The notes beneath the pieces are model-generated. The model did no database searches, was not told the origin of the DNA, and saw only the letters and a program-made list of their open reading frames with translations. The translations under genes were made by a program, and so were the position numbers. DNA of 64,000 nt, taken from contig WIUZ02000025.1 of NCBI GenBank assembly GCA_015956445.1, positions 1-64,000 of the forward strand. Direction: 5' to 3'. Below are positions 46,814-50,203 of the stretch, piece by piece (position 1 is the stretch's first letter; the number at the start of each line of letters is the position of its first letter). Source of the DNA: Thelephora terrestris (taxonomy: Eukaryota > Basidiomycota > Agaricomycetes > Thelephorales > Thelephoraceae).

Positions 46814-49800
46814 ATGTCCGCCATTAAACGCCTTTTCAGTCAGCACAAGCTGCATAAACACCGTTCCCTCCCAACCACTGCAGACGGTCGCGTTGATTAT
46901 CTTGACCTCGAGCGCGTCAATAGGCACGAGCGATCAAAGTCCAAGCCCACCACTCCGCTAAGCGTTTCGACTCCTACCTACAACACTGAGATCCCTATCT
47001 CCATTTCGCCGATATCACACTCCCACACCTCCTCTGTTTCCTCAAGTAACAGCAATCTTCGTCATGGCAGGAGCAGGAGTCGGGCACGCGCAAAGCATGA
47101 ACGAGCCAAATCACTGGACGCTAGGGCTGCTCAGCTTACACAAGATTCGTTAGAACGCGCGGAGCGTAGGATGAATTCCTATGAGCGTGTAAGTCCCCTC
47201 TTAGTCCACGAAGACACCATTTCTCACTGCTTGTTCTGCTCAGGACCCCCTCAGGGATAATTACGGTGAACTCCCTCTGAATATGTCTCAGGAAGGAATT
47301 GGTCAGTAAATGTGTTTGGCCAACCGATGCCTTGGTTTCTAATGTAAACCTCCTTCTAGAACGCCCTTCGGACTCCTTCGATTCGCTGCTCACTCGATGT
47401 GAAGGCGCCTCGATACAATTCCGGGCTCGAGTTCACCATACCCGACCGGTCGGTTCGCGCATCATGTTTCTTGTCCTCAGGCAAGGAATCTCCACCGTCC
47501 AGGCCGTCCTCACTGAGGAGGAGGGAAAGGTCTCCCGCAATATGGTCCGATGGGCTGGTAATCTCCACAAGGAGACCATTGTATACGTACAGGGGAAGAT
47601 TCAGAAGCCCGGGGACGGTCAACCAGAGATAAAGCAGGCCTCAATTCACGAGGTCGAGATCTCTATTGAGAAGGTACGAGTGTTCTCTCGGGCAGTCCCC
47701 CCTCTAGGCTCGGCTAACTCACTGATGAACCCATAGCTTCATGTGATATCTGCTCCCACCTCCTCGCTTCCATTCCAGGTCGAGGATGCCGGTCGTTCCC
47801 TCGCCGAGCTTACCCGACCAGACGCCCACTATCCTCGTATCGGCCAGACTACTCGTCTCGCCAACCGAGTTGTTGACCTCCGTACCCCTGTCTCCCACTC
47901 CATCTTTCGTGTTCGCGCCGGTATCACCAACCTCTTCCGAACGTTCCTCGATTCTCAAGGGTTCACCGAGATCCAATCTCCCAAACTCCAGCCCGCTGCT
48001 ACTGAGTCCGGCTCGGCCGTGTTCAAGGTCGACTATTTCCGTCGTCCGGCTTTCCTGGCGCAATCTCCCCAGTTGGCTAAGCAGATGGCTATCGCTGCTG
48101 ATATGGAGCGGGTATACGAGATTGGTCCCGTTTTCAGGGCTGAGAACTCCAACACCCATAGGCACTTGACCGAATTCACTGGCCTCGATCTCGAGATGGC
48201 TTTTGAAAATAATTATCACGAGGTCATGGATGTGATCGACAAGATGCTCCTCTTTATTTTCAAGGGTATACAAAATAACTACAAGAAGGAGGTCAGTCAC
48301 TTACACTCAACTTTCATGGCGATCGACTTTTGCTCACTTCCATTCTGCATAGGTTGAAACAATCAAGACTCAATATCCCCACGAGGATCTCCTCTTCCTC
48401 GAAGAGACCTTGAAGCTCAAATTCTCTGAGGGTATCCAGATGTTGATCGATGCGGGATACAAGGAGGATGACGGCTCAGACCCCAGCCCCCTCCAGGACC
48501 TGACCACCAAGGCGGAACAAACTCTTGGCCGACTAGTCAGGGAGAAGTACCACACCGATTATTATATTCTCGGCAAGTCGGACCTTCTTGAGCATGCGAT
48601 TTTGTTCTAACTCGACTTGAACAGACAAATTCCCTGCCAGTGCTCGTCCCTTCTACACCATGCCCGATCCGGAAAACCCCCTTCTGTCCAACTCCTACGA
48701 TATCTTCATTCGCGGTGAGGAGGTTCTTTCTGGCAGCCAACGTATCCACGACGCTGTCCTGTTGGAGAAGAAAATGAGGGAAGCCAACATCGACCCTGAG
48801 ACAATGACCGATTACCTCAACGGTTTTAAGTGGGGGTGCCCTCCACACGGCGGAGGAGGTGTTGGTCTCGAGCGTGTCGTCATGTTGATGCTGAAACTCG
48901 GTGACGTTCGATGGGCTAGTCTGATCCCAAGAGACCCGAGGAGCTTCCCCCAAAAGGATCAGTCTCCACCTGGGACGACCGTGTTTGCTGCCCAGAACCT
49001 CCTTCTTCACGGCCCGGAGTCAACCACTTTCACTACTAGCAACAAGCCCGTTGATGGTGAACTCCCTCGCCTCGAGAACGTACGTGCCCTAGCCCTATTC
49101 TGTGGTCCAAAATATGCGGTTTATTGACTTTTTTACTTTAATAGCTGATCGCGAAGTACGGTGACGCCACGAACACAAGTTGGATCGACCCTGCCTGGTC
49201 CGTCTGGCGAGACCGCAAGACCGGTGCCGCCGTCGGATACATCCCCCAAAACGGTTTCGCCATCACATTCGGAAACCCTCTATGCGAGCCCAAGCAGATC
49301 CCCGCTGTCGTTCGTGCTTACCTCAACTTCCTCACCAATGAAAAGTTGAAGCCTGTCTGGTGTTGCGTCGACGCCGAGACGGAGAAGGTTCTCGCCCACG
49401 AATTCGGATGGAGCGCTCTCACTGCCGTTGCCGAGGAGAGGATTAATCCCACTGAGGTTGACCCGGAGAAGCACGACAGGAACCTGAGGAAGAAGCTCCA
49501 CCGGGCCGAAAAGAGCGGTGTCAAGCTGGTCGACGTCGAGGGCTTGGTTGATCCTGAAGTGAAGAAGGAAATTGACGAGCGCGTTGAGGATTGGAAGCGT
49601 GGCCGAAAGGGCACCCAGATCCACTTGACCAGCGTCAGGCCGTGGGATGACGAGGCTCATCGGAAGTACTTCTACGCCAGGGACGCTGACGGCAAGATCT
49701 GTGCCATGGTTGTCTTGGCGCAACTCTCGGTTTCCCATGGGTTCCAAATCAAGTGGGCACTTGAGTTCCCCGGGGCGCCTCTCGGAGCGATCGAGGTCAG

Positions 49801-50203
49801 TGGGGTTTACTAATCGCGGCCGAATCGGTGGCTGATATCTCTCGATTAGTACATCCTTACCCACGTCATCAAAAAGATGGGCGAGGTTGGTGTCCAGAGC
49901 GCTACGTTTGGAGCGGGTGCCGCGAATGAACTCCATCGCGTGGACAACATCGGCGGGTTCAAGGTCGTCACTCTTGAAAAGGCGTATAATGGTCTTTCCT
50001 CTACGTTCCACCTCGGAAACAAGGGTGACTTCCGGTCCAAATTTGGTACCCAGCAGGATCCTGTGCGTCACGCTTTTTGCTGTTATCCCGATATCACACA
50101 TTGCTTACGCTTCGTTCTTTAGTTGTATATATGCTATCCTAAGGGCGGCCTCGGCGTGAAGGGGATAGAAGCTATCATGAAGATGCTTCAATCTCCGAAG
50201 TAA
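46814..50203 (+). CDS. erdS: ErdS: aspartyl-tRNA synthetase fused to DUF2156 transferase (ergosteryl-3-beta-O-aspartate synthase)
   Basis: Bifunctional enzyme: the synthetase charges tRNA-Asp and the DUF2156 (MprF-like, GNAT-fold) domain transfers Asp from Asp-tRNA to ergosterol, as shown for fungal ErdS. Nine exons in consistent phase: 46814-47188, 47244-47301, 47360-47673, 47737-48291, 48353-48572, 48625-49079, 49145-49795, 49850-50062, 50123-50203; 973 residues. Residues 1-125 are Ser/Arg-rich with a basic helix. The OB-fold anticodon domain follows (FRARVHHTRPVGSRIMFLVLRQG). Class II motif 2 is FRAENSNTHRHLTEFTGLDLEM (in two parts: FRAENSNTHRH, LTEFTGLDLEM) and motif 3 GGGGVGLERVVML near residue 583. 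The synthetase ends at RDPRSFP (about 613); DUF2156 starts with exon 7 (LIAKYGD, near 660) and shows SWIDPAWSVW, FGNPLCEP, KLHRAEKSGV and STFHLGNKGDFRSKFG. The intron after exon 5 is GC-AG. Confidence 0.93.

Follow-up and report, generated by a model that had tools for sequence, protein, structure and literature searches.

A gene of Thelephora terrestris was found that very probably encodes an ErdS-type bifunctional enzyme, predicted from its sequence to charge tRNA-Asp and to aspartylate ergosterol. ErdS of Aspergillus is ergosteryl-3-beta-O-L-aspartate synthase (AFUA_1G02570 in A. fumigatus; PMC11619415). In the section of PMC9437257 cited here, it is described as an aspartyl-tRNA synthetase (AspRS) fused to a DUF2156 domain, in which aspartate is loaded on tRNA-Asp and moved to ergosterol, making Erg-Asp. 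In the Thelephora protein the AspRS half would activate aspartate with ATP and then charge tRNA-Asp, and the DUF2156 half would take over the aspartyl group carried by Asp-tRNA and link it to ergosterol at the 3-beta-OH, the resulting ester being ergosteryl-3-beta-O-L-aspartate. Membrane attachment, transferase activity and the identity of the acceptor sterol are putative, based on homology and on published work on ErdS of Aspergillus. The gene thus adds a further copy to an enzyme type known from Aspergillus, and is not a new kind of system. The abstract of the 2020 PNAS paper on ErdS reportedly describes the pathway as conserved across 'higher' fungi, and a basidiomycete copy would therefore not be new in itself; the same paper is said to have introduced a companion hydrolase, ErdH. 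Our literature search for basidiomycete ErdS found nothing useful. According to PMC8172173, sterols of the Erg-Asp type occur in fungi only, and Saccharomyces cerevisiae lacks the gene.

The gene occupies positions 46814-50203 on the plus strand of the window, the whole 64-kb stretch of DNA that was analysed, and runs from an ATG at 46814 to a TAA at 50203. Nine exons with 2922 spliced coding bases give a predicted protein of 973 residues without an internal stop, the splice sites being those of a sequence-based model (Table 1). This model reproduced the coordinates, the protein length and the start of exon 7 at residue 660 that had been given in the initial annotation. The eight introns are 52-65 nt each; seven are GT-AG and the fifth is GC-AG. 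The latter junction was accepted because the DYYILDKFP that it creates matches both 9w9f (DYYILDKFP), a Protein Data Bank (PDB) relative discussed below, and yeast AspRS (DFYILDKFP). Whichever of the eight introns were retained, translation would run only 2-23 residues past the exon end before a stop, and for intron 6 the stop falls 15 residues past exon 6, giving a protein of 674 aa. Since every retained intron has this effect, intron 6 is notable only for its location.

Table 1. Exons of the predicted ErdS-type gene, with its single GC-AG intron, and the protein segments that they encode.
Feature	Position in window	Strand	Content	Evidence
Exon 1	46814..47188	+	125-residue Ser/Arg-rich N-terminal extension, MSAIKRLFSQHK..., with basic stretch RSRSRARAKHERAKS	Gene model; counterparts in L001 and 9w9f
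Exon 2	47244..47301	+	Residues 126-145, start of AspRS core (DNYGELPL)	Gene model; yeast AspRS alignment
Exon 3	47360..47673	+	Residues 145-249, OB-fold anticodon-binding domain	PF01336 at 165-252
Exon 4	47737..48291	+	Residues 250-434, carrying motifs 1 and 2 of the class II core (FRAENSNTHRHLTEFTGLD)	PF00152; residue check
Exon 5	48353..48572	+	Residues 435-508, the stretch of the class II core that separates motifs 2 and 3	Gene model; 9w9f and yeast alignments
Intron 5, GC-AG (GCAAGT...CAG)	48573..48624	+	Joins DYYIL-DKFP	
Exon 6	48625..49079	+	Residues 508-659, comprising AspRS motif 3 (GGGVGLER) and, at 615-659, the linker between the domains	
Exon 7	49145..49795	+	Residues 660-876, most of DUF2156 (LPG_synthase_C)	PF09924 at 678-905
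Exon 8	49850..50062	+	Residues 877-947, DUF2156 domain (TFGAGA)	
Exon 9	50123..50203	+	Residues 948-973, closing the DUF2156 domain (YPKGGLG), then the stop codon	

Profile searches bore out the proposal that a complete class II AspRS and a C-terminal DUF2156 domain are carried by one chain. Three Pfam families matched above their curated cut-offs, namely the OB fold (E 9.1e-08), the class II D/K/N synthetase core at residues 286-611 (E 3.7e-78) and LPG_synthase_C (E 1.3e-19), which is here equated with DUF2156 and supplies the profile match expected for the C-terminal part. The top NCBIfam match was TIGR00458, aspartate--tRNA(Asn) ligase, at 461.8 bits against a cut-off of 368.4, although this library is bacterial and archaeal and the name is uninformative here. 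A canonical stand-alone cytosolic AspRS ends soon after motif 3, whereas this chain continues for about 360 residues beyond the end of the yeast match at residue 614. ErgS, for its part, is an enzyme without a synthetase domain, and the AspRS domain of the Thelephora protein separates the two. Three features of ErdS are found: a complete class II AspRS that includes motifs 1-3 and the OB fold, a C-terminal DUF2156 in the same chain, and an AspRS half that groups with those of other fungal fusions.

The full protein was compared with the PDB, where 70 distinct sequences matched at E <= 0.001. Among the best 60 of these 70, the top three were 9w9f, 9w9e and 9w9g, whose matches span both halves of the protein (residues 69-968 or 124-968). 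These chains (947, 862 and 947 aa, respectively) are titled in the PDB only as 'Aspartate--tRNA ligase, cytoplasmic', and a literature search by the three structure codes found no paper; from their architecture we infer that they are ErdS structures. The Thelephora protein is colinear with 9w9f across residues 69-968 (E 7.3e-272; 420 of 891 aligned positions identical, 47.1%), and chance is thereby excluded for the AspRS-DUF2156 architecture. By region, identity to 9w9f was highest in the catalytic region (210/362, 58.0%) and reached 46/124 in the OB-fold region, 9/37 in the linker and 140/308 (45.5%) in the DUF2156 part. In the N-terminal extension (residues 69-125) it was 13/55 pairwise and 10/55 in the three-way alignment described below, so that 9w9f has the same build with a poorly alike extension. 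Residues 660-973 alone recovered 9w9e, 9w9f and 9w9g at E 2.9e-91 to 3.5e-91, followed by two weak matches (0.2 and 0.36), and the DUF2156 part of 9w9f itself matches PF09924 (E 9.3e-15).

A further relative was found in a prokaryote collection, as the sole confirmed locus among 119 pattern matches. This locus, L001, lies on contig NYXK01000071.1 (314,690 bases), filed under the "Deltaproteobacteria" metagenome-assembled genome (MAG) G001. Its gene contains introns, and the modelled ErdS-like protein of 1061 residues has the same layout as the Thelephora fusion, with a catalytic region 69.6% identical to 9w9f and 58.6% identical to the Thelephora protein. The introns and these identities indicate fungal DNA mis-binned into a bacterial MAG, and a bacterial AspRS-DUF2156 fusion was ruled out on the same grounds. 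Motif 2 of L001 (2146-2172) reads EDSNTPRH, compared with NTHRH or NTRRH in the other sequences, and 9w9g and 9w9f differ from each other within this stretch. G001 was also searched for a second eukaryotic AspRS, giving six PF00152 matches (L002-L007). One of them, L004, is the ErdS gene already described; L002, L003, L005 and L006 match AspRS queries at about 22-33% identity, and L007 has no match at E 1e-5. As the bin may lack some of the fungal genome, this search says nothing about that fungus.

The relatives closest to the Thelephora protein in the PDB search, the DUF2156 search, the three-way alignment with 9w9f and L001, and the six-row AspRS tree were all fusions of the same build. An AspRS joined to DUF2156 and nearest to such fusions belongs with ErdS, and the family named in the initial annotation is therefore the right one. 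The comparison with the Aspergillus enzyme, which likewise carries AspRS and a C-terminal DUF2156 in one chain, was made via 9w9e-g and L001 only.

The junction between exons 6 and 7 had been proposed both as the exact start of DUF2156 and as a clean separation of the two activities. The first proposal holds to within about 5 residues but not exactly, as the Pfam match starts at 678 and a conserved block, LExLIAxYGDA, begins slightly upstream of the border. The second is contradicted by L001, in which one uninterrupted 740-residue frame contains both PF00152 and PF09924; an intron at residue 659/660 is thus not a family-wide feature. Because L001, the sole other gene structure compared, lacks an intron there, there is no basis for regarding intron 6 as a remnant of the fusion, and the border was rejected as an evolutionary fusion scar. 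The same frame bears on whether two adjacent genes have been mis-joined, with exons 1-6 forming an AspRS gene and exons 7-9 a separate DUF2156 gene. The intron does lie close to the domain border, and its retention leads to a stop after 15 residues, yet the reading frame is preserved through the junction and exon 7 opens within the block that is conserved in the other fusions. We give the mis-joining a negligible probability, and consider it ruled out by the single frame of L001 together with the conserved block across the junction.

The Ser/Arg-rich N-terminal extension had been presented as an addition in this copy. It is real, and is encoded by exon 1, but it is not additional: the YGELPL-type core start is preceded by 131 residues in the Thelephora protein, its counterpart in L001 by 113 and that in 9w9f by 110, although the last count could include a cloning tag. 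Ser-rich and basic stretches occur in the extensions of L001 and 9w9f as well, and the Thelephora and L001 proteins share the start MSxxK(K/R)xFxxxK. With these counterparts, the extension was rejected as a novelty of the Thelephora copy, and it looks ordinary for the ErdS-type family. Searched against the PDB, the Thelephora extension gave one chance-level match (E 0.91) and that of L001 gave none. A basic, tRNA-binding N-terminal helix is known from yeast cytosolic AspRS.

Conservation of the AspRS half was assessed in an alignment with 9w9f and three stand-alone AspRS chains, which we take to be those of yeast, human and Entamoeba. We compared 17 yeast positions, presumed to be active-site or motif residues, the letters of which were checked on the alignment. 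Sixteen of the 17 are unchanged in the Thelephora protein, and the sole change, Ser280 to Thr, is also present in 9w9f; the charging site thus looks intact at the checked positions. In the six-row AspRS tree the three fusions (Thelephora, 9w9f and L001) formed one clade (support 100/99), with the Thelephora protein outside the pair of 9w9f and L001 (support 98/98). The yeast AspRS joined those of Entamoeba and human, as it would if the ErdS-type AspRS had diverged early from the stand-alone enzymes. Such a divergence is only a possible one, because the alternative tree grouping all four fungal rows was not rejected (p-AU 0.275).

For the DUF2156 half, the three-way alignment gave identities of 45.5-48.6% between the Thelephora protein and the other two fusions, with 111 columns invariant across the three. 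Of the 298 positions of the PF09924 profile, the best stretch in the Thelephora protein extends to 252, and those of 9w9f and L001 to 298; despite this shorter match, the end of the Thelephora domain aligns with both. That the protein is mainly an ordinary cytosolic AspRS for translation, with an inactive DUF2156 half, is quite unlikely. Such a role would fit an AspRS half intact at the checked positions and a DUF2156 part less conserved than the catalytic region (45.5% versus 58.0% identity to 9w9f), but the domain is unbroken, retains the invariant columns and scores better against PF09924 than the domain of 9w9f (74.4 versus 54.9 bits). A more serious, though still improbable, alternative is that the DUF2156 half acts on a lipid other than ergosterol, either another sterol or a glycerolipid, and makes a different aspartyl-lipid. 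MprF-type enzymes vary in their acceptor, as stated in the cited part of PMC10580965, and an identity of less than half to the other fusions leaves room for such a change. Against this, the match to the fungal fusions is far stronger than that to the bacterial DUF2156 proteins compared: in the plasmid collection 7 records had a DUF2156 match, all 7 at only 19.5-25.4% identity. The best of these by E-value (9e-19) was on plasmid NZ_AP017978.1 of Neochlamydia sp. S13 (118057-118986), at 99% coverage and 20.1% identity. A PADLOC search with the DUF2156 half matched 0 families, and two scans of viral_contigs gave 50 and 54 pattern matches, none of which was a relative. Transfer to ergosterol by an active DUF2156 half remains the preferred reading.

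Two known systems resemble such an ErdS-type enzyme in part. ErgS is a stand-alone DUF2156 protein. Like ErdS it is a sterol aminoacyl-tRNA transferase acting on ergosterol, making ergosteryl-glycine with Gly-tRNA, but it depends on an independent glycyl-tRNA synthetase and, in the excerpt of PMC10449517 cited, is reported only in Ascomycota. LysX, a bacterial LysRS joined to an MprF transferase, resembles ErdS in combining synthetase and lipid transferase in one chain (PMC9437257, in the section cited). It differs in using Lys rather than Asp and in its glycerolipid acceptor, and in the LysX profile NF002821 the synthetase match lies at positions 748-1084 of 1102, the C-terminal end of LysX.

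In the genomic neighbourhood, a divergent gene on the minus strand (about 42000-46212) lies head to head with the ErdS gene; it carries GIIERVEMLDFMCH, GKSAVLTAITIAMGGKA and a long coiled coil, and is a candidate SMC6, judged by eye from these motifs. Two minus-strand ABC transporter frames (51665-55169), both with ABC2_membrane and one with ABC_tran, lie downstream of the ErdS gene. Three further minus-strand frames (3940-5424, 8630-10105 and 10400-11929) have an F-box-like domain near the N-terminal end and are perhaps an expanded family. Together with the eight short introns and the branching of the protein outside the other two fusions, these F-box-like frames are indirect signs of a basidiomycete origin. 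These frame scans covered 20 of the 35 listed frames of at least 200 aa in the window. The tRNA and Rfam scans of the 64-kb window gave 0 matches each.

The AspRS half probably also serves translation, and may do so as the only cytosolic AspRS. A tblastn search of the 64-kb window at E 1e-3 found no second AspRS, the gene itself being the sole match. In the portion of PMC4301749 cited, Aspergillus niger has a 559-aa cytoplasmic AspRS beside a 952-aa DUF2156 fusion, and Cryptococcus neoformans has, beside a mitochondrial AspRS, a single Asp-type enzyme in the cytoplasm (CNBG4380, 'AsxRS'; 884 aa); the length of CNBG4380 suggests that it is a fusion. Translation too would depend on the fusion if basidiomycetes have no other cytosolic AspRS. 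We tentatively propose, while leaning somewhat against it, that the fusion is the only cytosolic AspRS here; protein synthesis and sterol chemistry would then meet in a single essential polypeptide, which would make every Asp-tRNA used in translation and also consume Asp-tRNA for the membrane sterol. Retention of intron 6 might act as a switch that frees AspRS from the lipid half.

The Thelephora gene is a divergent ErdS copy, unbroken in both halves, that helps to tell features shared across the family from lineage-specific ones: the N-terminal extension is common to the three fusions, and the exon border is not. Should the fusion indeed be the only cytosolic AspRS, it would lend itself to studying how one aminoacyl-tRNA pool is divided between ribosome and membrane.
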